From NCBI GenBank assembly GCA_001303705.1, contig LJUI01000013.1:1-29112 (forward strand): a stretch of 29,112 nucleotides of DNA, in the 5' to 3' direction. Below are positions 7,121 through 29,112 of the stretch, in pieces. The notes below the pieces were generated by a model. It did no database searches. It had not been told where the DNA came from and worked only from the letters and a program-made list of their open reading frames with translations. The position numbers and the translations under genes are program-made. Source of the DNA: a candidate division TA06 bacterium SM23_40 (lineage in GTDB: Bacteria > LJUI01 > SM1-40). Within the stretch, counting starts at the first letter, position 1, and each line of letters begins with the position of its first letter.

Positions 7121-8293
7121 CTATGCAGGAACGACCGTTCGAAGCAGACGAAAGACGCGGTTGACCATCGGCGGCCTGTCTATGGAGATCGCACCCTGCG
7201 GACACATCTCTTGGCAGCAGAAGCACCGGATACAGACACTGAGGTCGGTATCGGGCCTCCCGTTCGTAAGGACGATGGCCCCCGCAGCGCAGGCCTCTAC
7301 ACAGGTTCCGCACCCGTCGCACCGCTCTGGCGCGAGCACCGGCCTGGGCCGAAGCAGGCGTTTGATGACCGCCTTCACCTCGGCGGGCATGGACTCCGTG
7401 ATCAGCCACAGACGCGGCACGGCGAAGTCACTCACCCCAACCCTGTGGAGAGGTGCGCCGACGAGATCCAGTTCCTCGAGACTGCGTAGCCCCAGACCCC
7501 GTGCTATCGCAGCCCGCGTCGTCGTCACCTCCATCGGCGGTATGCCGACCACAGCGGCCGCCACCATATCAACGCTAAGACTTGAGGTGCCGGCGATGAG
7601 GACACCCAACCACCGGGGATCGCCGCCACCCGGTCCATTTCCCTCCATACCGACAATCCCATCCATGACGGTAAGACCTGGAGCTGTGAGCATCCAGATA
7701 TCGACCAACATCTCGCTGAAGTCGGAGCGGTCCGGCCATCGCAGATGGTACTGCGCCTTCTCTCTCCCGGGGACCGCTCCGAACATGTTCTTAACGCCGC
7801 CAGTAAGCAGCGTAAGGCCGTGAGTCTTCAGCTTTGGCAGATTGATGATGAGGTCGGCGGAGAGAATCGCATGGAGTAACCGTGCCCGACTGATAGCCTT
7901 CCCGCCCGGGACAGGTTGTTCCACGAGCTCCACGTCACAGGAGAGAGCAGCCCCGGATTCACGGGAGGCTGTCTCCATGCCTGTCGATCGGTACACGGAC
8001 TGGAGCTCGGCTGTCGAAAACGGTCCAGATGGGCTGTCTGCGATGATCGGATGTGCGCCCAGCTCGGCCACGTGTCTTGCCACGGCGCAAACGAGTGCGG
8101 GGTGCGTCGTCACCGCGGCCTGCGGCTCCCGTCCCGCCAGGAGATTCGGCTTGATGACGACGCGCATGTCAGGGCGGACGTAATGGTCCAGTCCTCCCAG
8201 CAGGCGAAAGGCGCGTGCCACTCCATCGTCAACGTGCTGTGGAGCGTAATCTTCACAGCAGACTACAGCGACCCGCTCATCGGTAGCGGGCAT
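7121..8293 (-). CDS. DUF362 domain protein with two C-terminal [4Fe-4S] sites
   Basis: A 390-residue protein. Residues 1-290 form a DUF362 domain (VVIKPNLLAG near 45, INLPKLKTHGLTLLTGGVKN, MDGIVGMEGNGP), a family of unknown reaction common in anaerobes. The C-terminus carries a bacterial ferredoxin pair, CDGCGTCVEACAAGAI and CIRCFCCQEMCPQGAI. In the first cluster the fourth Cys is followed by Ala instead of the usual Pro. A redox role is likely but the substrate is unknown. The ATG at 8293 sits 8 bases after GAGAGGGG; a GTG three codons upstream would overlap that ribosome site. Its neighbours give no pathway. Confidence 0.85.
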   Translation of the reverse strand: MPATDERVAVVCCEDYAPQHVDDGVARAFRLLGGLDHYVRPDMRVVIKPNLLAGREPQAAVTTHPALVCAVARHVAELGAHPIIADSPSGPFSTAELQSVYRSTGMETASRESGAALSCDVELVEQPVPGGKAISRARLLHAILSADLIINLPKLKTHGLTLLTGGVKNMFGAVPGREKAQYHLRWPDRSDFSEMLVDIWMLTAPGLTVMDGIVGMEGNGPGGGDPRWLGVLIAGTSSLSVDMVAAAVVGIPPMEVTTTRAAIARGLGLRSLEELDLVGAPLHRVGVSDFAVPRLWLITESMPAEVKAVIKRLLRPRPVLAPERCDGCGTCVEACAAGAIVLTNGRPDTDLSVCIRCFCCQEMCPQGAISIDRPPMVNRVFRLLRTVVPA

Positions 8294-12763: not shown

Positions 12764-13549
12764 ATGCCGATATTCGAACCCGTAGGAGAGAAGGAAGTCA
12801 CCCGCGCCATCATAGACAGCTTCATGAAGCAGTTCCATGCGTACGCCGAGTCCGACGTCATCATCGTCGGCGCAGGCCCGAGCGGACTCATGGCGGGCCG
12901 CGAGCTTGCCGCGGCCGGGGCGAAGATACTTATCACGGAGCGCAACAACTACCTGGGAGGAGGATTCTGGCTGGGCGGGTATCTGATGAACAAGGTTACC
13001 GTGCGGGCGCCGGGACAGGAGATACTCGCAGAACTCGGTGTCCCGTTTGAGCAGGCCACACCCGGACTGTACGTCGCCGACGGACCTCACGCGTGTTCGA
13101 AACTGATCGCCGCGGCCTGCGATGCAGGAGCCAAGTTCGCCAACATGACGATCTTCGATGACGTTGTCGTGCGCGATAGCCGAGCCGCGGGAGTCGTCAT
13201 CAACTGGACGCCCGTCGCCGCCCTCCCACGCGAGATAAGCTGCGTCGACCCGATTGGAATCGAATCAAAACTCGTCATCGACGCCACCGGCCACGACGCC
13301 TGCGTCGCCCGCAAGATGGAAGAACACGGTCTTGTCACACTCCGGGGTACCGGCGCGATGTGGGTGGAGCGATCGGAAGATGCCCTCGTCGACCACACGG
13401 GCGAACTCTATCCTGGACTCATCGTGACGGGAATGGCGGTAACCGCTGTCTACGGCCTGCCGAGGATGGGTCCGACATTCGGCGCGATGCTCTATTCCGG
13501 CAGACGCGCGGCTGAGGTCGCTCTCGAGAAACTGAAGGAATTCGCCTAG
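12764..13549 (+). CDS. thi4: Thi4 thiazole synthase
   Basis: A 261-residue Thi4-family flavin/NAD-type protein that makes the thiamine thiazole (ADP-thiazole) from NAD and glycine. The dinucleotide-binding motif is [17 protein letters not shown] near residue 33; [20 protein letters not shown] and the C-terminal [18 protein letters not shown] are family hallmarks. At the sulfur-donor site the sequence is SCVDP, giving Cys160, as in plant and yeast suicide enzymes, whereas the archaeal sulfide-using enzymes have His there. The ATG at 12764 has GAGGAGG about 8 bases upstream. It is first in a plus-strand run with an unknown gene and thiE. Confidence 0.92.
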
Positions 13550-13576
13550 CGGCTTGTCCACACGGGATCATACAGG

Positions 13577-15384: not shown

Positions 15385-17937
15385 ATGAAGGGTTCGGTAC
15401 TCGTCATTGGAGCCGGAATCAGCGGGATGCGGGCCACGGCAGAGCTCGTTCAGGAGGGGTTCAAGGTCTTTCTGCTCGAGCAGAGGCCCACGATCGGCGG
15501 CACCATGGCCCAGTTGGACAAGATGTACCCGACGAACGAGTGCGCTACCTGCACTCTGCTGCCTAAGATGCTCGAGCTGACCAGCAATGAGAACGTCACC
15601 CTCCTGGCTTTTTCGGAACTGAAGGAGGTCACGGGTGCTGACGGCGGGTTCAAGGTACGTTTAGAGAAGAAGGTCCGCTATGTCGATCCCACCAAATGCA
15701 ATGCATGCACCGAGTGCTTCCCGGTCTGTCCGGTGGGCGCAGTGCCCATGGAATTCAACTTCGGCCGCGGCGCGAGCAAGGCGATCAGATTCTGGTCCCC
15801 CTTCCCGCCACGAAAGGCGCTGATCGACCCCGAGGCGTGCACCTACATCAGGGAGGGAAAGTGCGGAGAAGGCACCGAGCCCCTCTGCGCCGAGGCGTGT
15901 GAACCCGATGCCATCGACTTCTCTCAGAAACCAGCAGAGGTGGAGATCGAGGTGGGCTCTATCATCCTGGCTGCCGGGGCAAAGGAAGAGCGAGGTGAGC
16001 CCCTGGCGCGGCTCGGACACGGAAGGCTGGACAACGTGCTCACCTCCCTCGAATACGAACGGCTCCTCTCGGGGTTGGGGCCCACCGGCGGCGTGGTGAA
16101 GCGTGACGATGAGACCGTTCCCCACCGAGTTGCCTGGATCGTAACAGAGGACTTCGACTCCGGCGGCCGGCCGCGCTCTCCTACCGCGTTCATGTCCGCC
16201 ACCTCCGAGGCCCTCGGCACCCTTGAGCGGGATGCCGGGGCCGAGGCAATCGTCATCTCGGGCGGCCCGAAGCTGGAGGGCAGGGGCTATGAGGCGTTCT
16301 GGAACGATGCCAGGGAGAGGGGAGTCCAGTTCACCACAGCCTCCGCCGCGGAGGTGACACAGGGACCCGATGGAGCCCTCGTCGTCTCCTGCCAGGGGGG
16401 CGACAGAGACGAGATCGAGGCCGACATGGTTGTTCTCTCTCCGCCCCTTGTCGCGTCCAAGAGCATGACGGACCTGGCCGAAAGACTCGGGATCGGGCTC
16501 GACGATCATGGGCTTCCTGCCACCCCGGACGCACACCCCCTCAAAACAACCCGAAAGGGCGTCTATCTCTGTGGGATCGCGCAGGGATCCAAGGGGATCC
16601 GCGAATCGGTGATCGATGCCTGTGCCGCCGCAGCGGCGTCCGCAGCCCGCCTCGCCGGGGTGCGGGGAACCGAGATCACCTCACCGAGCCCGCCCGAGCT
16701 CCTGCCGGTGACGGCAGACGACGAGGCGAAGACCGCTGTGATGATCTGCCGGTGCGGCGCGAATATCGCCGGCGTACTCGACATCCAGGAGCTGGCCGAC
16801 TACGTCGGCACTCTCCCCCATGTGGCCCGGGTGGAGATCACCCCGTTCGGGTGTGATGGCGTCAAGATCAAAGAGCTGCTCGGGTCTGGAGAGTACAATC
16901 GCCTGCTGGTGGGCGCCTGCTCCCCGAGAACGCATGAGCCACTCTTCCAGATGTACACGGAGGCGGGCGGCCTCAACCGCTACTTGATAGAGATCGTCAA
17001 CCTGCGCAACCAGTGTACCTGGGTTCATGCCCATGACAAGGAGGGAGTCGCCAGAAAGGCACGGACCCTCATGCGCATGGGGGCGGCCAGAGTAGCGCTC
17101 CAGGAGCCGCTTACCGGACTCTCCATCCCGGTCACTCAGAGCTGCCTGGTCATCGGCGGCACTCCGGCCGGCATTGCCTGCGCCGCAGAACTGGGAGAGA
17201 TGGGCTACGCCACCTATCTGGCTATCGCGGAAGACGAACCCGGCGCGGGCCTGGATGCGAATGCCACGCGACTTCTGGCACCTCACCTGGAGTCCATGCG
17301 GGAGTCGGGTAACGTTACGGTCTACCCTCGGGCGACGATAGGACAGGTACAGGGTTTCGTCGGGAACTACACCGCAGAGGTAGTGACCGAAGGAGGCTCG
17401 AATCAGGTTGAGGTGGGGACGATCGTGATCGCGACGCGCGATAAGATGGGACGGCCGGGTGGAGAGGAGGACTACGAACATGCCCTGTATCTCACGCGGG
17501 ATGACGACGGCTTCTTCGTCGGCGCTCTGGGCAATCTGAATCCGCTCGACTTCAACACCGACGGAGTGTTCATGTGTGGCTCTGCCCGGGACGACACGTC
17601 TGCAGCATGGTCGATGGTGAGCGGCGAGGCTGCCGCCTCGCGGGCAGCAGCCATCATATCTCACGGCGAGATGGCTGAGTCACCCGTGGTCTCTTGCGTC
17701 GTCGACGAAAACTGCGACGGCTGCGCATACTGCATCGAGCCCTGCCCGGCTCATGCCATAACCCTGATCGAGTACATGAAGGGAAAGGAGATAAAGAAGA
17801 CCGTGGAGGCGAACGAGGCACTCTGCAAGGGCTGTGGGTCATGCATGGCGACTTGCCCCAAGGAGGGGATCTTTGTACACCACTTCAGACCCGATCACCT
17901 GCGGGCAATGGTTGATGCCCTTCTGGAGGTTGCGTAG
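15385..17937 (+). CDS. hdrA: HdrA-like FAD/iron-sulfur protein (heterodisulfide reductase subunit A family)
   Basis: An 850-residue flavin- and Fe-S-containing electron-transfer protein. Order: FAD Rossmann motif VIGAGISG (7-14); NECATCTLLPKM (Cys53, Cys56) of the HdrA-specific cluster; ferredoxin motif CNACTECFPVCP (Cys105-115); an irregular Cys set (152, 160, 168, 172); an insertion domain with ICRCGANIAG and GACSPRTHEP; a second, degenerate dinucleotide motif (VIGGTPAGIACA, about 594); and two C-terminal [4Fe-4S] motifs, CDGCAYCIEPCP (777-787) and CKGCGSCMATCP (814-824). In methanogens and sulfate reducers HdrA bifurcates electrons among ferredoxin, a disulfide and H2, formate or NADH. The stop codon abuts the ATG of mvhD. 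No HdrB or HdrC gene is in the window, so the terminal acceptor is unknown. Confidence 0.9.
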   Translation: MKGSVLVIGAGISGMRATAELVQEGFKVFLLEQRPTIGGTMAQLDKMYPTNECATCTLLPKMLELTSNENVTLLAFSELKEVTGADGGFKVRLEKKVRYVDPTKCNACTECFPVCPVGAVPMEFNFGRGASKAIRFWSPFPPRKALIDPEACTYIREGKCGEGTEPLCAEACEPDAIDFSQKPAEVEIEVGSIILAAGAKEERGEPLARLGHGRLDNVLTSLEYERLLSGLGPTGGVVKRDDETVPHRVAWIVTEDFDSGGRPRSPTAFMSATSEALGTLERDAGAEAIVISGGPKLEGRGYEAFWNDARERGVQFTTASAAEVTQGPDGALVVSCQGGDRDEIEADMVVLSPPLVASKSMTDLAERLGIGLDDHGLPATPDAHPLKTTRKGVYLCGIAQGSKGIRESVIDACAAAAASAARLAGVRGTEITSPSPPELLPVTADDEAKTAVMICRCGANIAGVLDIQELADYVGTLPHVARVEITPFGCDGVKIKELLGSGEYNRLLVGACSPRTHEPLFQMYTEAGGLNRYLIEIVNLRNQCTWVHAHDKEGVARKARTLMRMGAARVALQEPLTGLSIPVTQSCLVIGGTPAGIACAAELGEMGYATYLAIAEDEPGAGLDANATRLLAPHLESMRESGNVTVYPRATIGQVQGFVGNYTAEVVTEGGSNQVEVGTIVIATRDKMGRPGGEEDYEHALYLTRDDDGFFVGALGNLNPLDFNTDGVFMCGSARDDTSAAWSMVSGEAAASRAAAIISHGEMAESPVVSCVVDENCDGCAYCIEPCPAHAITLIEYMKGKEIKKTVEANEALCKGCGSCMATCPKEGIFVHHFRPDHLRAMVDALLEVA

Positions 17938-18351
17938 ATGAACGAAACATACGAACCAGTCGTAGTCACCTTCTGCTGTAATTGGTGCTCATATGCGGGC
18001 GCGGATGCAGCCGGTACCGCTAAAGTGCAATACCCCTCCAACGTCCACATCGTCCGGGTGATGTGCAGCGGGATGCTCCATCCCAACATCGTCATCGATG
18101 CCCTGAGCAAGGGAGCCGACGGCGTCCTGGTCTGCGGCTGTCATCCAGGGGATTGCCACTATCAGGAGGGAAACTTGAAGGCAGAGAAACGGGGCGAGGC
18201 AATAGGCCTGATCCTGGAAGATCTCGGGCTCGAGCCGGAACGCTTCCGCCTCGAGTGGGTCTCTGCCTCGGAAGGAACGCGGTTCGCCCGGATCGCTACC
18301 GAGATGGTCGAGACCCTGCGGGAGCTCGGCCCGAATCCGTTCAGGTCCTGA
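17938..18351 (+). CDS. mvhD: MvhD/FlxD-like [2Fe-2S] hydrogenase delta subunit
   Basis: A 137-residue iron-sulfur protein of the MvhD/FrhD family that passes electrons between HdrA and a hydrogenase, formate dehydrogenase or flavin oxidoreductase. The family Cys pattern is complete: TFCCNWCSYAGAD (Cys13, 14, 17), VMCSGM (Cys43), and VCGCHPGDCHYQEGN (Cys66, 68, 73). The ATG follows the hdrA stop with no gap, so the two are surely co-expressed. It is a stand-alone version, not fused to HdrA as in some lineages. It is followed by a hairpin at 18361-18396. Confidence 0.93.
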   Translation: MNETYEPVVVTFCCNWCSYAGADAAGTAKVQYPSNVHIVRVMCSGMLHPNIVIDALSKGADGVLVCGCHPGDCHYQEGNLKAEKRGEAIGLILEDLGLEPERFRLEWVSASEGTRFARIATEMVETLRELGPNPFRS

Positions 18352-19672: not shown

Positions 19673-20809
19673 TCAGTCCGATGACACGACGAAGATCGGA
19701 TCAGCGAATAGTACGAACTCCAGAAGCGTTTTTCTGTCGTCCGCGTCGAGGAAACCCTGCCGCTCAAGCATCGTCTCTGCGAACTCCACCTTCGCCCGCA
19801 GAAACGCCTGACCGAGCGACATCCCGGCCGAGGCCCAGCGCAGGAAGCCTGCCACCAGAAGATCGGCCTCGGACGGAGGCGGCCTGGCGGGACCGTATGA
19901 CGTGGCGGTCGATCCGACGAAGCCGCGCGCACCGGCGTCCAGGAATGCAAGAGCGAGCGAGGTGGCGTGGTCTTCGCCGACTACATTCGCTCCGTAGCAG
20001 GCCTCGGAGGCGATGACCGCCCCCGATGCACGCCCTATCTGCGTGGGATCGATCAGGCAGGGATACGCCGGATACTCCGGAGGATCATCGGGGGCCGCCT
20101 GCCCATACCACCCCGGCCGGTCGGGAAGACCGTGCAGATTGAAGTACAGCCAGCGCCTGGCTGCAAGCCAGGTAGGAGAAAAGTTCTCCCGTGTGAGCGG
20201 CGGAGAGATCCGCAAATCGTCCGGCTCACCGATGACGCTGAACACTACCCTCGATGAATCCTTCCATACGCTCGCAGAGCAGCCGAACGCCTCGGCGCGG
20301 TCTGTCGACGCAGGACATCGGGTCTCGACCGGACCGAGAGATTGTTCGATCACTGCAAGCCAGCGTCGAGGATCGCCCGCTCCTGAGCCTGAGAGCACTC
20401 CATCGGGGAGACGTCCCAGAGACCTTTCCGGAACGAGGAACTCGTCGTCACGAGATGCATACGGATTGTCGGAGAGGACGATCTCGTCGCCATCGAGGGT
20501 CGGGTTCGGCAATCGATAGAAGGGGACGATGTCATCTCCGCCCAGGATGCAGTAATGTACGGGAAGTTCGCCGCGCCGATCGAGCGAGGCATCGAGGCGG
20601 TCGAGCAGGCGCTTGATAGCCTCGGGTTCGATGCTACGAACCGGGGCCACTCCCAGCGGACGGACGTACCGTTCGTCGTCGATGAACAGAAGCTGCCTTT
20701 CCGGGCCCCCGCCAGCGCCGCGCCCGAGGATTCGCTCCAACGCGCCGATTACCCCCTCCCCGTATTTTGCAACCAGATTCGATCGCGCCGTGAGTACCAG
20801 TTCCTGCAT
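19673..20809 (-). CDS. Gingipain-like (C25/caspase-fold) cysteine peptidase, cytoplasmic
   Basis: A 378-residue protein with the features of clan CD peptidases of the C25 type. The N-terminal half has ILGGDDIVPFYRLPNP and SDNPYASRDD, the usual family lead-in. The catalytic pair is LYFNLHGL (His226) followed by GWYG, and VIASEACYG (Cys271). The C-terminus has the fold motif GARGFVGSTATSYG and a helix with SLGQAFLRAK. Unlike gingipains it has no signal peptide, propeptide or adhesin domains, so it probably acts inside the cell. The ATG at 20809 follows a weak GGAAG; a GTG one codon earlier is an alternative. It starts 34 bases after the broken HEPN gene, in a likely operon with that toxin/antitoxin pair. 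Confidence 0.75.
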   Translation of the reverse strand: MQELVLTARSNLVAKYGEGVIGALERILGRGAGGGPERQLLFIDDERYVRPLGVAPVRSIEPEAIKRLLDRLDASLDRRGELPVHYCILGGDDIVPFYRLPNPTLDGDEIVLSDNPYASRDDEFLVPERSLGRLPDGVLSGSGAGDPRRWLAVIEQSLGPVETRCPASTDRAEAFGCSASVWKDSSRVVFSVIGEPDDLRISPPLTRENFSPTWLAARRWLYFNLHGLPDRPGWYGQAAPDDPPEYPAYPCLIDPTQIGRASGAVIASEACYGANVVGEDHATSLALAFLDAGARGFVGSTATSYGPARPPPSEADLLVAGFLRWASAGMSLGQAFLRAKVEFAETMLERQGFLDADDRKTLLEFVLFADPIFVVSSD

Positions 20810-20843
20810 CACTCAGCTTCCAGAAGTGAACTCACGATCTTCT

Positions 20844-21957: not shown

Positions 21958-22434
21958 CTACTTGCGGCAGATCACGTGGAGGCAGAAGGGATCACCTCTG
22001 GGGATGGAGCGCTCGATGAAATAGTCGAGGTCCTCGTTCAGCCCGCGAACGAGGGCTTCCTCCATCGTCGTATGGGCCTCGCATATCTCGGGGCTGGTGA
22101 ACGGGTAGGGACAGGCAGTGGCCTTGATGGCGATTCGATCCTCATCAAACTCCGTCACTTCGCCTTCGACGAGAACATTGTTGAACACCCTGACGACGAA
22201 GTGTCCTACGTCGGCGATCTCCATCTTCCCTTCTCGATCCCGCACGCGCCGGGCGATCGACTCGCCATAGTCCCGGCTCACATCTCTGATAAGCTCCAGC
22301 CCCTCGTCGCCGAACTTCTCGACGATGGCCTCGTACAGAATACGTATGCGGGTCGCCAGCCCCCTGACAACCTGGCGATTGCGCACCTCCAGAGGGACTT
22401 CCTCAGTCTCCATCGACGGCGGATACCGAATCAT
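21958..22434 (-). CDS. ATC-hydrolase-family protein
   Basis: A 158-residue protein resembling the L-2-amino-thiazoline-4-carboxylate hydrolase family (PF14196): the C-terminal half has ATACPYPFTSPEICEAH (Cys108, Cys118, His121), GLNEDLDYF and a terminal RGDPFCLHVI (Cys151), the usual order in that family. In Pseudomonas the namesake opens a thiazoline ring in L-cysteine production, but most relatives are uncharacterised and occur in anaerobes. The conserved Cys/His set would also suit a metal or Fe-S site. The ATG at 22434 follows GGGGG by about 6 bases. It is the last gene of the long minus-strand metal/Fe-S run. Confidence 0.7.
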   Translation of the reverse strand: MIRYPPSMETEEVPLEVRNRQVVRGLATRIRILYEAIVEKFGDEGLELIRDVSRDYGESIARRVRDREGKMEIADVGHFVVRVFNNVLVEGEVTEFDEDRIAIKATACPYPFTSPEICEAHTTMEEALVRGLNEDLDYFIERSIPRGDPFCLHVICRK

Positions 22435-22503
22435 GCGATTCCCCCTTCGTCGATCTCGTGCGCCACAGCATCCCGCGTCGGTCCAGACGGAGCGGCAGAG
22501 CGC

Positions 22504-22965
22504 CTATACCGCCGCGTGCGGGTCGTTGGCAAGCCGGATGTCCGCCTCGATACGCACCTCGGGTCTCACAGACAGGGTTACCATACAGAGTGATCGGGCC
22601 CTCTCGAGCGCCTGGCGAGCTTCTTCTTGCGACCGCTCGTCCCTGACATAGATTCTCGGTCTCACCGTGACTGTCACGAACCGAAGCTCTCCGCCGACAA
22701 TCGTCGCCAGGGCATCGGCCTCACTTTCATAGGAGACGAGTTCGACCTTCTGCCGCTCAGCGAGCGACACGAAGGTCGTCATCACACAGACATTGATCGA
22801 CGAGACGAAGAGATCCTCGGGCGACCAGAACCCACCTTCGCCCCCAAACTCAGGCGGGCAGGCGACCTCCACATCGGCCTTGCCTGCGGCCGACATCGTC
22901 CCTCGATGCTCTCCGGTCCAGCGAACAGATGTCTCGTAGCGGTAACGCTTCGGCTTGAGCTCCAC
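22504..22965 (-). CDS. OsmC family protein
   Basis: A 153-residue OsmC/Ohr-superfamily protein. It contains FWSPEDLFVSSINVCVMTTF with Cys60 and ARSLCMVTLSV with Cys127, the two redox Cys of thiol-dependent peroxidases in this fold. The start is taken as the GTG at 22965 (AGGGAG about 5 bases upstream), which gives a normal OsmC N-terminus; the frame is open to 23046 but that would overlap the FmdB gene. Family members reduce organic hydroperoxides with dihydrolipoyl or other thiols. In this context a role in protecting sulfur or metal centres is plausible. Confidence 0.85.
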   Translation of the reverse strand: MELKPKRYRYETSVRWTGEHRGTMSAAGKADVEVACPPEFGGEGGFWSPEDLFVSSINVCVMTTFVSLAERQKVELVSYESEADALATIVGGELRFVTVTVRPRIYVRDERSQEEARQALERARSLCMVTLSVRPEVRIEADIRLANDPHAAV

Positions 22966-23017
22966 CGACTCCCTCCCTCGATCGTCCAGGAACCAGCTCG
23001 AGAGGGACGAACGTCCA

Positions 23018-23245
23018 TCAGCGGCCGCAGCACCGCTTCGGATCATCGCACGGGTTGGTGGTGCCGCAGCACGACTCCTGACTCTCCCCTTCAGCAGCCC
23101 TGACGAAGATGCCAGCCCCTCCGCTGATGAGACGTTCAGCCTTCGTCCCGCATCTCGGACAAGCTGCTCGTGGCTCGGAGGTCATCGCCTCGTACTTCTC
23201 GAATTTCTTCCCGCACTCAGGACATTGGTATTCATAGGTCGGCAT
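23018..23245 (-). CDS. FmdB-type zinc-ribbon protein with Cys-rich tail
   Basis: A 75-residue protein starting MPTYEYQCPECGKKFE, the standard FmdB/CxxC zinc-ribbon opening (Cys8, Cys11), with the second pair ACPRCG (Cys29, Cys32) and the GGAGIF stretch that closes the family domain. It then has a tail ESCCGTTNPCDDPKRCCGR with five Cys, which could bind metal. The ATG at 23245 has GAGGTG about 9 bases upstream; two further in-frame starts lie 3-4 codons earlier. It begins 16 bases after the DUF1847 gene. Confidence 0.85.
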   Translation of the reverse strand: MPTYEYQCPECGKKFEKYEAMTSEPRAACPRCGTKAERLISGGAGIFVRAAEGESQESCCGTTNPCDDPKRCCGR

Positions 23246-23261
23246 CGAGTACATCACCTCG

Positions 23262-23960
23262 CTATGTGGTGCTGCTCTTCCTCATCCACGGGTGGTACGA
23301 GTCGAGCGTATAGAGGATGGCCAGCGGGTTGTGTCCCAACAGGCGATCCTTCACCGCGAGGACCGTGGTCAACGCTTCGGAGAACTTGAAGAACAGGGCA
23401 TCATGGCCAACGCAGAGCCCGAGCACCACATTGAAATCGGTCCCTGCCTCATTGAGCACCATAGCTTGGCCGACTGGATTGCACATGGCTTCGGGTGATC
23501 CGATGTTGATCTTTTCATCATCCCGTACGCCGATGCTCTTTTTCGGCACACCCCCAACCTTGCATACCACAGAGACAACGTCGAATCCCTGCGCGCGGAA
23601 GACCTCTGTCGCCAGCCGGGCCTCCTCGTGGAGCCCCGAGCAGAATGCAAGGCCGAGACGCTCATAGCCCATGCGGTGGGCAAACTCCACTATCTCCTGA
23701 ATCCTCGGCTTCACAGGACGCTTCACGTACGGGACGACCTCCCGGCCGGCATAGCACGCAGCCTCCTGGATCGAGGCCTGGCGAGCGTATTCGCGCACCT
23801 CAGGGCGGGTATAGATCGATTCCACCTGTTTGTATCTATCTCCAAAGCCGATGGAAGGACAGCCTTTCGGCCCCGTTCCCTCAGGCATCCTGCATATGCG
23901 CCGATCGGCCGGGAGCGGGCAATCGGCGCATGAGGCTCGGCGGCCCGAACTAGTGGTCAC
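23262..23960 (-). CDS. DUF1847 Cys-rich protein
   Basis: A 232-residue protein of the DUF1847 family, which occurs mainly in anaerobes and is annotated as metal-binding. The Cys-rich start (SCADCPLPADRRICR... KGCPS) is followed by EAACYAGR, LAFCSGLHEEA and the C-terminal GLCVGHDALFFKFSEALTTVLAVKDRLLGHNPLAILY, which is the family signature. I choose the GTG at 23960 (GGGGAG about 8 bases upstream), which lies inside the last codons of the Mrp-NifX gene and so couples translation; a TTG seven codons earlier is less likely. No reaction is known. Eight or more conserved Cys suggest an Fe-S cluster or metal site. Confidence 0.85.
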   Translation of the reverse strand: MTTSSGRRASCADCPLPADRRICRMPEGTGPKGCPSIGFGDRYKQVESIYTRPEVREYARQASIQEAACYAGREVVPYVKRPVKPRIQEIVEFAHRMGYERLGLAFCSGLHEEARLATEVFRAQGFDVVSVVCKVGGVPKKSIGVRDDEKINIGSPEAMCNPVGQAMVLNEAGTDFNVVLGLCVGHDALFFKFSEALTTVLAVKDRLLGHNPLAILYTLDSYHPWMRKSSTT

Positions 23961-25314
23961 AGATATTCTCCCCCGTCGCAAGCGTCCCGCTCAGGTACTG
24001 ACTAACGAGGTCATGAGGAGGAAGGGATGGCGCTCCAACCACGACCTCAATGCCATTCTGCGCGAAGATCGCCCGTGCCCGCTGCCCCATTCCGCCGGCT
24101 ATGATGATGTTCGCTCCGTTCTCGTGAAGCCAGCGAGGCAGGGCGCCGGGCTCATGTGGGGGTCCGGTCTTCATCTCGGTTCCTCTGATCTCTCCCCCTA
24201 CGACATCAACAAGGGCGAATGTCTCGCAGTGACCGAAGTGGGCGGAGAGCTTGCCGTCTGCGATCGGGACCGCTATCCTCAACGTTTCATCGGAACGAGG
24301 AATCATATTCTCCTCCTCTGAATCACATGGTGCGCCGTGCCCCGGCCCGGCACCTCCTCCCGAGGCCTGCCTCCTTCTGCCGTCGTCCCCGGAGGTGCCC
24401 GCCCTCTCCATGGGAGAACGACTGTCGAGGCTCAGTATACGCTCAACGATGTTTCCGAATGCCTGGCCAGCGGGCGTGGCCGACTCCCCCGTGAGCAACG
24501 GCTGCCCGCGGTCAGAACGATCGACGATCTCTGGCTCGAGGGGGATGCTCGCGAGGAATGGCACACCCATCTCGAGCGCCATCTTCCTCCCCCCGCCGGT
24601 CTTGAATACATCGATGCGTTTCCCACAGTGGGGACAGGTGAGCCAGCTCATGTTCTCCACCACCCCGAGCACCCCAAGACCGAGACGCCGGCAGAATGTG
24701 ATGCACTTGCGGACATCGGAGAGTGCGAGCTCTTGAGGAGTCGTCACGATTATCGCCCCGTCGGCCTGACCGATGAGCTGAATGATGGAGAGCGGCTCAT
24801 CGCCAGTTCCCGGAGGCGAGTCAACGATGAGGTAGTCGAGTTCGCCCCATTCGACATCCTTGAGGAACTGCTTGATGGCGCCCATCTTGAGAGGACCGCG
24901 CCAGATGATCGGTGCCTGGTCACTGCTCAGCATGAAGCCGATCGACATCACCACGAGATTGGGGCCGGCCTTGACCGGCGATATGCCCGTCGGCGCGGCG
25001 CCGGGACGCTTGCCCTCCAGCCCGAGGAGCTTCGGAACACTCGGGCCGTGGATGTCGATGTCAAGAAGCCCCACGCGCTTCCCCGCAACCGCCAATTGAA
25101 CTGCAAGATTGACGGCAACCGTGCTCTTGCCCACACCTCCCTTCCCGCTCAGTACCACTATCTTATGACCGATCGATGCCATGCGCCGGCCGATAGCCAG
25201 TCGGTCCATATCGACGTTCGGGCCACTCGTCTCTCCGTGTCCCGTTCTCCCACTGGCCTCTGTCGACGCGCCCGATCCCTCGCTATCTCCCGATCTATCT
25301 TCTCGTTTTGCCAC
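23950..25314 (-). CDS. Mrp/NBP35 ATPase fused to NifX/ORP domain (MrpORP-like)
   Basis: A 454-residue two-domain protein. Residues about 40-300 are an Mrp/NBP35/ApbC Fe-S carrier ATPase: deviant Walker A SGKGGVGKST (56-65), LLDIDIHGPS, YLIVDSPPGTGDEP, and the cluster-binding TCPHCG (Cys227, Cys230). A Gly/Arg-rich linker (300-340) leads to a NifX / dinitrogenase-cofactor domain (344-450: RIAVPIADGKLSAHFGHCETFALVD... ANIIIAGGMGQRA). The same fusion, MrpORP, is known from sulfate-reducing Desulfovibrio as part of the orange-protein complex, where the ORP domain can bind a Mo-Cu-S cluster. The start is a GTG at 25314 with AAGGAGG 8 bases upstream. Two ferredoxin-ATPases lie directly upstream, matching that complex. 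Confidence 0.93.
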   Translation of the reverse strand: MAKREDRSGDSEGSGASTEASGRTGHGETSGPNVDMDRLAIGRRMASIGHKIVVLSGKGGVGKSTVAVNLAVQLAVAGKRVGLLDIDIHGPSVPKLLGLEGKRPGAAPTGISPVKAGPNLVVMSIGFMLSSDQAPIIWRGPLKMGAIKQFLKDVEWGELDYLIVDSPPGTGDEPLSIIQLIGQADGAIIVTTPQELALSDVRKCITFCRRLGLGVLGVVENMSWLTCPHCGKRIDVFKTGGGRKMALEMGVPFLASIPLEPEIVDRSDRGQPLLTGESATPAGQAFGNIVERILSLDSRSPMERAGTSGDDGRRRQASGGGAGPGHGAPCDSEEENMIPRSDETLRIAVPIADGKLSAHFGHCETFALVDVVGGEIRGTEMKTGPPHEPGALPRWLHENGANIIIAGGMGQRARAIFAQNGIEVVVGAPSLPPHDLVSQYLSGTLATGENICDH

Positions 25315-25340
25315 TCCAGTTCCTCCTTAATTTCTTCTCC

Positions 25341-25385
25341 GATGGGGGACGACGCTCACACCCGATCTCATGCGTCTCCCCCATC
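25341..25385 (-). promoter_or_regulatory. Long hairpin between the ferredoxin-ATPase and Mrp-NifX genes
   Basis: On the minus strand GATGGGGGAGACGC pairs with GCGTCGTCCCCCATC (14 bp with a single-base bulge) around a 16-base loop. It lies 8 bases after the ATPase stop and 27 bases before the Mrp-NifX start. No T tract follows, so it is more likely an mRNA processing, stabilising or partial attenuation element than a terminator. Confidence 0.6.
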
Positions 25386-25392
25386 TGCCCGA

Positions 25393-26256
25393 TCAACGGC
25401 CCAGCGATGCCAGGACGCCATCCCATACTTCCTCTATCGCTGAGGCCGCACCGTCACTACAGTATTCGACCACCGATTGTCGGTGGATCATCGCCTCCGT
25501 CACCCTCTGGTCGAACGGTATCCGCCCGCAGAGTCGGATCCCTTCACGGTTACAGAGCGTATCGATTCTCGCGGTCATGTCAAGGTTAATGTCGTATCGA
25601 TTGATGCACGCGATGACCGGTATATCGAAGTGGACAGCCAATCCCACGATACGCTCCATGTCGTGGATCCCTGAAAGCGTCGGTTCAGCGACGACCAGAA
25701 CGAGGTCTACTCCGGTTATCGAGGAGATGACCGGACACCCGATCCCTGGCGGGCCATCTATCAGTACCAGACCCAGCCCCCGCTCCCTACCCAGGGTCTT
25801 CGCCTCATTCCGAATAACAGCGACGAGCTTCCCCGAGTTCTCCTCAGCGATCCCCAGGCGGGCGTGGACGAGCGGCCCCACCCGCGTCTCTGAGACGAAC
25901 CACTCGCCTGAGACGTTCTCTTCGAGGTCAATGGCCTGCTCAGGACAGACGTGCGCGCAGACACCGCACCCCTCACAGGCGAATCGATCGACGATGAGGT
26001 CACTCGATATCGCATCGAACCGGCAGACCTCGCGGCATTCGCCACAGGCAGAACAGGCTCCCTCGTCGATACATGCCGTCCGGCTGGAACGGAACTCCTC
26101 CCGTCTCACAATAGTGGGCTCGAGGAGAAGGTGGAGATCGGCCGCATCGACATCGCCATCTACGAGGACCGAGTCCTTCGCGAGAGAGGCGAGAGATGCT
26201 ATGACGCTCGTCTTTCCCGTCCCGCCCTTTCCGCTGACGACCGCTACCTGCTTCAT
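25393..26256 (-). CDS. MinD-family ATPase with inserted double [4Fe-4S] ferredoxin (ORP-complex type)
   Basis: A 287-residue MinD/ParA-like ATPase: Walker A SGKGGTGKTS (8-17), LVDGDVDAADLH, and Walker B-like LVLIDGPPGIGCPVIS. A ferredoxin domain is inserted at about 60-110 with two clusters, ACSACGECREVCRF (Cys68, 71, 74, 78) and CEGCGVCAHVCPE (Cys94, 97, 100, 104). In the first cluster the Pro after the last Cys is replaced by Arg. Paired copies of such proteins flank the ORP genes in Desulfovibrio and form the orange-protein complex. Its ATG overlaps the stop of the paralogue upstream (ATGA), so the two are made together, probably as a heterodimer. Confidence 0.92.
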   Translation of the reverse strand: MKQVAVVSGKGGTGKTSVIASLASLAKDSVLVDGDVDAADLHLLLEPTIVRREEFRSSRTACIDEGACSACGECREVCRFDAISSDLIVDRFACEGCGVCAHVCPEQAIDLEENVSGEWFVSETRVGPLVHARLGIAEENSGKLVAVIRNEAKTLGRERGLGLVLIDGPPGIGCPVISSITGVDLVLVVAEPTLSGIHDMERIVGLAVHFDIPVIACINRYDINLDMTARIDTLCNREGIRLCGRIPFDQRVTEAMIHRQSVVEYCSDGAASAIEEVWDGVLASLGR

Positions 26257-27122
26257 CGACTCACCTCATGGTGGAGAGCACGGCCGCGAATCGCACGCTC
26301 CTCGATGCTCCGGAGAAGTGTCTGAAAGGCGACTCTCCACTCCGCCATCATCTCGACCAACAGCTCCCCCCGCGAGTACGCTTCGGCAATACGGCGGTCG
26401 AACGGTATCTCTAAGTCAATCGGTATCCCTTGATCGCGGCAGTAGTGATAGACTTCCTCATCACCGAGGCCTGCCCGGTTGACCACCACACTGAATGGTA
26501 TTTGCAGCTCACGCACTGTCTGTACCGCCAGTACCAGGTCATTCAGTCCGAAAGGAGTCGGTTCGGTGACGAGGAGCACGAAGTCGGCCCCCCTGATACT
26601 CTCGATCACGGGGCAGGAGGTGCCCGGAGGAGCATCGATAATAACGAGTCTCGATCTCTCGATCCTTTTCTTCACCGCCCGAATGAGCGGAGGGGACATC
26701 GCCTCTCCGATCCGAAGCCGGCCGTGGACGAAATCGATGCCCCCCGCAGTCCCCCATTCGACCGTACCGATCTCCCGCGGTATTTCCCGGATGGCATCTG
26801 TGGGACAGACGAGAGAACAGCCGCCGCAGCCGTGGCAGAGCTCCTGGAATGTGAGGACCTGATCGCCCAGCACCGCGATCGCATGGTAGGCACATATCTC
26901 CGCGCATTCACGGCAAAGGTTGCACTTCTCCATCTCGACATCAGGTACGGGTATGGTCACGCACTCCGAACCGCGTATCTCGGGCCTGAGGAAGATATGC
27001 ACGTTCGGCTCCTCGACATCGCAGTCGAGCAACTGCACAGCTGAGGCACTGGACGCGGCGAGGCTGGTCGCGACTGTCGTCTTGCCGGTGCCGCCTTTGC
27101 CGCTCGCAACAGCAACGATCAT
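26253..27122 (-). CDS. MinD-family ATPase with inserted double [4Fe-4S] ferredoxin, paralogue
   Basis: A 289-residue paralogue of the next gene: Walker A SGKGGTGKTT (7-16), LLDCDVEEPNVHIF, ferredoxin clusters CNLCRECAEICAYH (Cys67, 70, 73, 77) and CHGCGGCSLVCPT (Cys96, 99, 102, 106), then LVIIDAPPGTSCPVIES and LLVTEPTPFGLNDL. Here too the fourth Cys of the first cluster lacks the following Pro. The ATG at 27122 begins a two-gene unit about 90 bases after the zinc-ribbon gene. ATP hydrolysis could gate cluster transfer or electron flow to the NifX/ORP proteins encoded alongside. Confidence 0.92.
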   Translation of the reverse strand: MIVAVASGKGGTGKTTVATSLAASSASAVQLLDCDVEEPNVHIFLRPEIRGSECVTIPVPDVEMEKCNLCRECAEICAYHAIAVLGDQVLTFQELCHGCGGCSLVCPTDAIREIPREIGTVEWGTAGGIDFVHGRLRIGEAMSPPLIRAVKKRIERSRLVIIDAPPGTSCPVIESIRGADFVLLVTEPTPFGLNDLVLAVQTVRELQIPFSVVVNRAGLGDEEVYHYCRDQGIPIDLEIPFDRRIAEAYSRGELLVEMMAEWRVAFQTLLRSIEERAIRGRALHHEVSR

Positions 27123-27213
27123 AGATCAGGTCCTTAGTTGCTGCCCTCTCATAGCCGAGAACAGGTCGAACTCGTCTCTGTAGCTATCCCGACAGAACCC
27201 ACGGGGGAGAGTT

Positions 27214-27423
27214 TTACCGTGCGCGGGTCATCGCAGCCCCACACTTCGGGCACTTGACCGAATTACACGGCACCCCACGCTGGTGTGGTACTTTCGCTCC
27301 ACAATCCGGACAGACACAGTCCCCTCCGGGCCCCAATCCGTACCCCCCCATCCTTCCACTGCCCTGTCCCTGTCCACCCCCACCGGGTTCTCCGGGCGGT
27401 CCAGTTCCATTCCCACGTGGCAT
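27214..27423 (-). CDS. Gly-rich small zinc-ribbon protein
   Basis: A 69-residue protein: MPRGNGTGPPGEPGG, a Gly/Gln-rich first half, then a ribbon with CVCPDCGAKVPH and CNSVKCPKCGAAM (four Cys in two CxxC pairs plus two extra). The opening resembles the MPGxDGTGPxG start of DUF5320 proteins such as the one at 28388-28816. The ATG at 27423 has GGGAGG 9 bases upstream and sits at the stop codon of the NifU-like gene, so translation is likely coupled. Proteins of this kind are common beside NifX genes in anaerobes and archaea; a metal-delivery role is only a guess. Confidence 0.8.
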   Translation of the reverse strand: MPRGNGTGPPGEPGGGGQGQGSGRMGGYGLGPGGDCVCPDCGAKVPHQRGVPCNSVKCPKCGAAMTRAR

Positions 27424-27424
27424 C

Positions 27425-27865
27425 TCAGTTCCCTCCCTTCGAATGGATGTCATCGATGGCCCGCCGCAACGTCGCCACCGCCAGCTCGGCGCAGTGTGCG
27501 TACGACTCAGGCAGGCCGCCGAGAATCTCGAGTATGTCCTCGGGCATAATTCTTGCAGCCTCCTCTCCCGTCTTCCCCCTTGCGATATCTGTCACTACGC
27601 AACCACAAGCAAGGCTCGGTCCGCACCCGTCGGTCAGGAACGTCGCTTCGCGTATCCGACCGTCCCTCACTCCGAGAAAGATCGACATCGTGTCCCCACA
27701 CGGGCCTGTGAACGTAGCCTGCCCATCAGGATCCTCGAGCTCGCCGACATTGATGGGATCGAGGAAAAGCTCTATCACTCGCTCGCTGAATACCTTCCGT
27801 GCATCGGCGAGGATCTGATCCTGAATGTCGCGCGCCACCCTATCCAGATCCATTTCCGGGGACAT
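27425..27865 (-). CDS. NifU/IscU-like Fe-S scaffold protein
   Basis: A 146-residue protein of the NifU N-terminal / IscU family, on which Fe-S clusters are assembled. All three cluster Cys are in place: GPCGDTM (Cys56, with Asp58), TDGCGPSLACGC (Cys81, plus two extra Cys at 87 and 89) and YAHCAELA (Cys125). ARGKTGEEA and LGGLPES are further family marks. The LPPVK chaperone-binding motif of classical IscU is replaced by LGGLPES. The ATG at 27865 follows GGGAGGG by about 10 bases; an ATG four codons on is an alternative. No cysteine desulfurase is encoded in the window. Confidence 0.9.
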   Translation of the reverse strand: MSPEMDLDRVARDIQDQILADARKVFSERVIELFLDPINVGELEDPDGQATFTGPCGDTMSIFLGVRDGRIREATFLTDGCGPSLACGCVVTDIARGKTGEEAARIMPEDILEILGGLPESYAHCAELAVATLRRAIDDIHSKGGN

Positions 27866-27943
27866 CCTTGCTCGTTCCCTCCCTCTGAGGCCGACTGATG
27901 ACCGACGCCTCGTCCGGCACCGGTCGGTGAGTCGGCGGCTCGA

Positions 27944-28306
27944 TCACGCCCAATGGCTTTCCTTGTCGGGACCCGTTACCACCGCCAGCTTTCCCTGTCT
28001 GAACTGCTCGATGGCCTCTCGCACGGTCCCGGTCGCACCTACTACGACCTTGATCTGTCCGGCGGCGAGGGTGCGGAACGCCTTCGGACCGCAGTGGCCG
28101 GTGATGACATGAGTCACCCCGCGCTGGGCTATGTTCTGCGCCGCCTGGATCCCTGCCCCCTGCGGCGCCGACAGGGTCTGAGAATTGTCCACCCATTCGT
28201 ACTCCATTGACTCCAGTTCGACGATAATGAAACCCGCCGCCCTGCCGAAGCGCTCATCTACTGGCGAATCGAGATCTCTCCCCTTGCTCGTGATACCGAT
28301 CTTCAT
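27944..28306 (-). CDS. NifX/NifB-type dinitrogenase-cofactor domain protein (ORP-like)
   Basis: A 120-residue single-domain protein of the dinitrogenase iron-molybdenum cofactor biosynthesis family: MKIGITSKGRDLDSPVDERFGRA at the start, then SAPQGAGIQAAQNIAQRGVTHVITGHCGPKA and IKVVVGATGTVREAIEQF. The same fold carries FeMo-co precursors in NifX/NafY and the Mo-Cu-S cluster in Desulfovibrio orange protein. With no nitrogenase genes nearby, an ORP-type function is more likely. The ATG at 28306 has GGGAG 8 bases upstream; the frame is open 18 codons further without family similarity. The single Cys (GHCGPKA) is a possible ligand. Confidence 0.92.
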   Translation of the reverse strand: MKIGITSKGRDLDSPVDERFGRAAGFIIVELESMEYEWVDNSQTLSAPQGAGIQAAQNIAQRGVTHVITGHCGPKAFRTLAAGQIKVVVGATGTVREAIEQFRQGKLAVVTGPDKESHWA

Positions 28307-28387
28307 TCTCCAGCTCCCGGGTGTGGTGTTATAGACGGGCGACACGAGGGCGGAGTTCACCGCCTCCGTCCCCGCGTCGCCCAGGCC

Positions 28388-28816
28388 TTATTCAGCCTCT
28401 TTCTTGCTCTTGCTCAGCTCTTTCATTCGGGCCCTGATCTCATCCATCTCCGCCTGGAGATCGGCCATCTCCTGTTCCAGAAACGCCCTCTCATCCGCCG
28501 GTGAGGGCGCACCCTCATACGGAGCGCCGTACGGGTAGGGCCCACCGTACCCCCAGTACGGGTGCGGGAACTGCCCTCCGCCGAAAGACCACCATCCCCG
28601 CCCCCGGCCCTGTCCACCACCCCAGCCTCTGCCGACGCCCCAACCTCTGCCGCCACCCCAGGCCCGACCTCTTCCCCCACCCCAGGGGAATCCGCCGCGC
28701 CCGACGCCGAACCGGGGCGTGCGGCCGTAGTACCCGCGGCCGCCGGTGCATAGCCCGAGCCCGCGCCCGGTCATGGGGCCAGCTCCCATCGGCCCTGTGC
28801 GATCAAGTCCTGGCAT
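28388..28816 (-). CDS. DUF5320 protein, Gly/Trp/Arg-rich with C-terminal coiled coil
   Basis: A 142-residue protein beginning MPGLDRTGPMGAGPMTGRGLGLC, the DUF5320 hallmark, followed by a long Gly-Arg-Trp-rich low-complexity stretch (residues 24-95), a Pro/Tyr segment and a C-terminal coiled coil (ERAFLEQEMADLQAEMDEIRARMKEL). Such proteins accompany NifX-like and Mrp genes in many anaerobes; function unknown. The ATG at 28816 has GAGGAGG 9 bases upstream. The frame remains open 81 codons upstream into the NifX gene. Confidence 0.88.
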   Translation of the reverse strand: MPGLDRTGPMGAGPMTGRGLGLCTGGRGYYGRTPRFGVGRGGFPWGGGRGRAWGGGRGWGVGRGWGGGQGRGRGWWSFGGGQFPHPYWGYGGPYPYGAPYEGAPSPADERAFLEQEMADLQAEMDEIRARMKELSKSKKEAE

Positions 28817-28874
28817 GATGCATACCTCCTCGTAGTAGAATTGCTCCTCATCTGGTCCCCTGTGGGGCCCCGGT

Positions 28875-29112
28875 TCATCGATCGGCCAGCCTCCTGGTGG
28901 GCGGCCAGCGGTGCCTGCCCAACGGCGTCCTCCCGCGCATACCTCTGCTCCGTCCCCGTCCTCGACTCCGCCGATGCCACCTGTGCGCTGAGTGCCGGGC
29001 TCTCGCCGGTCCGCCAGCAAGGAACTCCGCGAGCACCTCCTCAACCGGACCGGCGGCAAACGGGATCACCTGAACGCCGTGGCTGGCCAGGAGCCTCCCG
29101 GAAAACGCGCTT
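28875..29112 (-). CDS. NifX-domain protein, C-terminal part (cut by window edge)
   Basis: The last 79 codons of a minus-strand gene entering from the right edge. The visible start GRLLASHGVQVIPFAAGPVEEVLAEFLAGG is the C-terminal strand-helix of the NifX/dinitrogenase-cofactor domain (compare VVVGATGTVREAIEQF in the neighbour at 27944-28306). After it comes an Arg-rich tail of about 45 residues that looks unlike the family, so the true end may differ. The gene precedes the DUF5320 gene by about 60 bases. It would be the third NifX-type domain in this cluster. Confidence 0.65.
   Translation of the reverse strand, partial: SAFSGRLLASHGVQVIPFAAGPVEEVLAEFLAGGPARARHSAHRWHRRSRGRGRSRGMRGRTPLGRHRWPPTRRLADR

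Follow-up and report, generated by a model that had tools for sequence, protein, structure and literature searches.

Gene content of the operon

The window analyzed here is the whole 29,112-base contig C46 of the candidate division TA06 bacterium SM23_40, a metagenome-assembled genome (MAG) of 189 contigs totalling 2.88 Mb (completeness 89.8%, contamination 1.3%). Our subject is a minus-strand operon that spans position 29112 (the contig end) down to 21958, in which genes of the ORP machinery stand together with a gene for a NifU-type scaffold. An earlier note on this DNA counted eleven consecutive genes; all eleven are complete, and a twelfth one, cut by the contig end, has to be added. The order is NifX fragment, DUF5320, NifX1, NifU, small zinc ribbon and MinD1, followed by MinD2, MrpORP, DUF1847, FmdB, OsmC and a V4R-like gene. 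The gaps between the complete genes range from -32 to +91 bases and include three overlaps, as the overlapping stops and starts noticed before had indicated; they are consistent with one transcript.

The ORP-type core suggested in that note was borne out. MrpORP (23950..25314) consists of an Mrp/NBP35 P-loop domain with a CPHC motif and a C-terminal NifX domain ending in CDH, and it exceeds the cut-off of the curated two-domain equivalog NF041136 (541 versus 450 bits). NifX1 (27944..28306), an ORP (Orp8-type) orthologue, matches PF02579 with 87 bits, and its best sequence match in the PDB is 2wfb, which we take to be the D. gigas ORP (the PDB record says ORP), with 94 bits against 68 for the next one. 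MinD1 (26253..27122) and MinD2 (25393..26256), whose genes overlap by four bases, are the two ferredoxin-containing MinD ATPases of the earlier description: hidden Markov models (HMMs) identified PF01656 and Fer4 in both and PF10609 in MinD1, and each protein has two 4Fe-4S motifs. Ferredoxin motifs are likewise present in the MinD ATPases Orp3 and Orp4 (PMC6345978).

Three NifX-type domains had been proposed, and those of NifX1 and MrpORP stand. The third is a C-terminal fragment at the contig end (28875..29111) with about 25 domain residues, which scores 13.9 bits against PF02579, below the cut-off of 26.3; the proteins that match it best are third NifX paralogues from the ORP-type clusters L173, L056, L163, L054 and L161. 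The MAG contains three PF02579 matches, namely NifX1, MrpORP and a 509-aa protein, whose reading frame (L070 6794-8323; G000 contig C14) runs from a CDF-type cation transporter, named by eye, into a C-terminal NifX-type domain. In locus L086, a protein (12852-13550) that joins a NifX domain to a MerR-type DNA-binding domain is encoded beside a NifX-MinD-Mrp-DUF1847 cluster and is possibly a metal-sensing regulator.

The NifU/IscU-type protein (27425..27853) was correctly recognized as a member of the scaffold family: it matches NifU_N (PF01592) with 86 bits, and the ligand residues C, D, C, H and C are all conserved in the alignment. Its best PDB match is 4eb5_C (NifU-1, 102 bits). Because it scores well below every NCBIfam equivalog cut-off (NifU_clost, IscU, NifU_proper and SufU; at best 97.5 versus 187.9 bits, for NifU_clost), its sequence places it in the domain family and in none of the named NCBIfam groups. 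The ORP-associated subfamily to which we assign it carries the motif TDGCG, the conservation of which is biased in our tree since the scan patterns preselected TDGC. In this NifU tree (138 columns) the window sequence was placed without support; the cluster and control NifUs required two label changes, where shuffled labels needed 19.5, and the approximately unbiased test did not reject one single split between them (p-AU 0.843).

Among the smaller genes, the glycine-rich DUF5320 protein (28388..28813; N-terminus MPGLDRTGPMGAGPMTGRG) was confirmed with 62.4 bits to PF17253. Two zinc ribbons had been named, of which the FmdB-type one (23018..23257) is supported by TIGR02605 (61 bits) and PF09723; the other one, a small double-CxxC protein with a glycine-rich start (27214..27423), stays below all Pfam cut-offs yet recurs in 37 of the 80 related loci described below.

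Conservation of the NifU-ORP association

An alignment of three ORP-associated NifUs was used as the query against genome contigs, and 80 of the 256 relatives obtained were kept. Their loci (L094-L173), picked by likeness to the window NifU, are called sibling loci; many of the contigs are short, about half belong to Chloroflexota, and the taxonomy is that of the records. Genes were counted up to 9 kb from NifU, and 20 IscU/NifU loci of other genomes served as controls.

NifX was found at 54 of the 80 sibling loci, Mrp at 50, and MinD1 and MinD2 at 41 each; DUF5320 (44), FmdB (34) and DUF1847 (10) were observed as well. The controls contained one NifX in 20 loci, no Mrp, no MinD and no other cluster gene. 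Of the 42 sibling loci whose upstream sequence exceeds 5.5 kb, 34 have NifX, 29 have Mrp and 24 have each MinD. NifX and both MinDs occur together at 39 of the 80, in the bacterial groups Chloroflexota, Myxococcota, Thermodesulfobacteriota, Pseudomonadota, Actinomycetota, Acidobacteriota, KSB1 and Aminicenantes, and, with one locus each, in the archaeal Thermoplasmatota and Methanobacteriota. The content of the cluster is kept across the sibling loci and its order varies; a fused MrpORP accompanies NifU in five of them (L155, L158, L161, L163 and L173). On the strength of the NifX, Mrp and MinD counts in siblings and controls, the presence of NifU in ORP-type clusters is widespread and not peculiar to the window, and judged by the control loci the arrangement is beyond chance. 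In a second sample, centred on 13 MrpORP loci out of 192 genomes, NifX was present at all 13, both MinDs at ten, FmdB at seven and DUF5320 at six. No paper describing NifU in ORP-type clusters was found in a search of the open-access literature, subscription papers being mostly outside its scope. A phylum-level comparison around G119 and G024 (seven and three genomes, respectively) added little.

Some further features of these loci can be mentioned. L097 and L103 contain two NifU-type genes per cluster, flanking MinD1, and L055 has a MOSC-domain gene (7662-8105) between MinD2 and FmdB. Several sibling NifX1 homologues carry a DUF5320-like glycine-rich extension in the same frame. When the remaining open reading frames of the 80 sibling loci were clustered and one member of each family was named with Pfam, the recurrent neighbours were radical SAM proteins (32 loci), metallo-beta-lactamases (26), methyltransferases (20), pyridine nucleotide-disulfide oxidoreductases (17), DUF134 (15), sigma54 activators (14) and ARMT1-like proteins (13). 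The window operon showed none of these families; MAG contig C9 encodes a protein distantly homologous to the radical SAM family (31% identity).

DUF1847 and the last genes of the operon

The DUF1847 protein (23262..23981, with the start perhaps at a GTG near 23960) was verified with 188 bits to PF08901. In an alignment of 32 homologues, eight cysteines, an N-terminal group of four (positions 1, 4, 13 and 24) and a second group within the body (97, 123, 150 and 173), and two histidines (176 and 200) are invariant. Its gene directly follows that of Mrp (L082 and L086), of NifX (L098, L134 and L140) or of NifU (L139 and L143); taken together, the Mrp and NifX arrangements span several lineages. 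Moreover, in G024 and G171, which represent one other lineage, single proteins show a NifX match of 19 bits (cut-off 26.3) followed by DUF1847 (110 bits), which is probably a NifX-DUF1847 fusion. In a sample of 20 DUF1847 loci taken irrespective of NifU, 18 had no Mrp or NifX alongside and two adjoin Mrp. The tie of DUF1847 to ORP-type clusters is therefore recurrent, not general, and the majority of DUF1847 genes are found elsewhere. In the AlphaFold model (mean pLDDT 79.6) the body of the protein is Rossmann-like; no Foldseek match reached E 0.001, and Z scores of up to 9.8 were obtained to varied Rossmann-like domains, including Dph2, with no decisive relative, and we read no function from this fold. 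The open-access search, with the same scope, returned no paper on DUF1847.

The OsmC-family gene (22504..23046, alternative start GTG at 22965; PF02566 56 bits) was named correctly in the earlier note. A 22-sequence HMM found OsmC at none of 140 related loci, and we rejected it as a conserved part of the cluster in favour of a lineage-specific neighbour.

The last gene (21958..22434) had been called ATC-hydrolase-like, a label that we abandoned, as its PF14196 score of 23.3 bits does not reach the gathering score of 28.1. Its predicted structure (mean pLDDT 83.5; best Foldseek E 3.6e-5) gave Z scores of 13.9 to Bet3 over 140 residues, 11.7 to MopR/PoxR sensor domains and 9.0 to vinyl-4-reductase proteins. 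The prediction was built on a two-sequence alignment and speaks for the fold only; a V4R/Bet3-like fold is predicted, and a small-molecule or metal sensor would be a reasonable guess. In L123, which comes from a Dehalococcoidales MAG, the gene next behind NifU encodes a homologue with 41% identity, for which Pfam gave no match at E 0.001. The match in L145 belongs to another family, DUF6125, and so, probably, does that in L107, which aligns with L145. Of the co-occurrences that the earlier note had proposed to count, those of NifU, FmdB and, more rarely, DUF1847 are thus recurrent in the clusters of other genomes, OsmC was found at none of the 140 loci and the last gene has one clear homologue beside NifU. 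The recurrence of NifU, FmdB and DUF1847 runs counter to the lack of association in related genomes by which that note would have been refuted.

Outside the operon, a peptidase C25-like gene (19673-20812; PF01364, 30 bits) adjoins it, and HdrA-like and MvhD/FlpD genes lie on the plus strand at 15385-18351, 3.6 kb past its 3' end. An MvhD gene likewise occurs close to NifU in L101 and L169, and L190 and L191 have one close to their NifX-DUF1847 proteins.

A putative route for metal-sulfur centres

The closest described system is the ORP complex of D. vulgaris Hildenborough, which consists of Orp3, Orp4, Orp5, Orp8 and Orp9/MrpORP; in Desulfovibrio, as the earlier note remarked, ORP binds a Mo-Cu-S cluster. 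The complex shares with the window a NifX-domain MrpORP, the ferredoxin-MinD ATPase pair and an ORP-type NifX protein, and relative to it the window adds NifU, DUF5320, two zinc ribbons, DUF1847, OsmC, the V4R-like gene and the co-directed run. In D. vulgaris the genes are divided between two divergent operons that are controlled by sigma54 and a DVU2106-type activator. No such activator was seen within the window operon, whose 5' end lies beyond the contig end; a sigma54 activator is present in the related loci L055 and L094, as in D. vulgaris.

The second point of reference is the NIF/ISC-type NifS-NifU-ApbC system of H. pylori, with which the window has in common the NifU_N ligand residues, an Mrp/ApbC-type carrier and a NifS in the genome. 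It differs from it in that NifU stands with ORP genes and not with NifS, in the TDGCG motif and in the carrier being fused to a NifX domain. The NifS-type desulfurase of the MAG is encoded on another contig, beside IleRS, LspA and MnmA-like genes (neighbours named by eye).

We propose, with a probability of roughly 0.6, that the operon encodes an anaerobic assembly and delivery route for metal-sulfur centres around the ORP machinery, with a NifU-type scaffold of its own. Sulfur would be supplied by the NifS cysteine desulfurase encoded elsewhere, and an iron-sulfur (Fe-S) cluster would be assembled on NifU. MrpORP would take the cluster from NifU, a step that we infer, and would hand it over, using ATP, to the pair of ferredoxin-MinD ATPases, which would form a complex with NifX1; the NifX-type subunits would hold the centre, presumably a metal-sulfur one. 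DUF1847, with its eight invariant cysteines and its tie to NifX, could be a further cluster carrier or client. This order of events is suggested because of the gene content and of data from two organisms. In D. vulgaris, the ORP core proteins co-purify and MrpORP transfers Fe-S to Orp3-Orp4-Orp8 in vitro (PMC6345978); for H. pylori, an interaction of NifU with ApbC, an Mrp homologue, was seen by two-hybrid analysis, and a NifU-to-ApbC flow is proposed by the authors (PMC8144621).

Several observations weigh against this proposal. The published motifs of MrpORP are CXHFGHCE and a terminal CDH (PMC6345978), and the window protein reads SAHFGHCE and ENICDH: it has a serine at the first cysteine of CXHFGHCE and keeps the remaining motif residues. 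NifU was present at only one of the 13 MrpORP loci of other genomes (L055), and on this account it is not an obligatory part of the ORP core; members of the NifU subfamily are mostly found with ORP-type genes, and most MrpORP loci lack NifU. The sibling-locus counts are not independent events, given the selection by NifU similarity and the share of Chloroflexota, and gene proximity is not function. Furthermore, the MAG, which is 90% complete, yielded no PF01592 match besides the window NifU and no SufB/D, because of which NifU may serve all the Fe-S proteins of the cell.

The last point leads to an alternative that we regard as unlikely and still worth weighing, in which NifU is a general housekeeping Fe-S scaffold that lies in an ORP operon by chance, with MrpORP and the MinDs as ordinary clients or carriers. 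A single NifS-NifU pair serves the whole H. pylori cell (PMC8144621), and the desulfurase beside an MnmA-like gene would suit such a role. Set against this, the subfamily sits in ORP-type clusters of many lineages and the control IscU/NifU genes do not, G024 and G001 each hold a subfamily NifU and a further NifU, and a second scaffold may be missing from the MAG, its absence being weak evidence at 90% completeness. The NifU of the earlier note is supported as a recurrent partner of the ORP genes; it may be a scaffold devoted to ORP, the "dedicated" one of that note, or the cell's only scaffold, sited in an ORP operon.

It is considerably less probable that the locus stores or mineralizes iron and sulfur instead of building a cofactor. 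IssA of Pyrococcus furiosus, a NifX-family protein with a basic glycine-rich tail, stores thioferrate (PMC5524996), and the glycine-rich extension of several sibling NifX1 homologues recalls that tail; the window NifX1, in contrast, has no such tail and other partners, and its nearest PDB sequence is that of ORP; ATPases, MrpORP and NifU suit delivery more than storage. That conserved anaerobe genes merely cluster with no joint pathway appears the least probable account: the gene order differs among loci, and neither OsmC nor the V4R-like gene is conserved as a neighbour, but the content persists in spite of the varied order, in several phyla of bacteria and at two loci of archaea, the controls lack the cluster, and the D. 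vulgaris core proteins co-purify. Nitrogenase cofactor synthesis was rejected: the NifX fold (PF02579) is shared with NifB and NifX, and none of the three PF02579 matches in the MAG is NifB-like.

The gene combination shared by the window and its siblings suggests a putative widespread route for building or delivering metal-sulfur centres around ORP. More tentatively, and short of even odds in our estimation, it could be an undescribed anaerobe-wide pathway in which the distinct NifU subfamily is the ORP scaffold and the same route employs DUF1847 as a cluster protein with eight cysteines; DUF1847 is placed there because of its adjacency to the NifX domain and the probable fusion. The source of the MrpORP clusters was left open in 2019, with general Fe-S machinery or a parallel route as the options (PMC6345978). 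The NifU subfamily that travels with ORP would be a concrete candidate donor to MrpORP, with a testable hand-over order, and DUF1847 would gain its first functional context.

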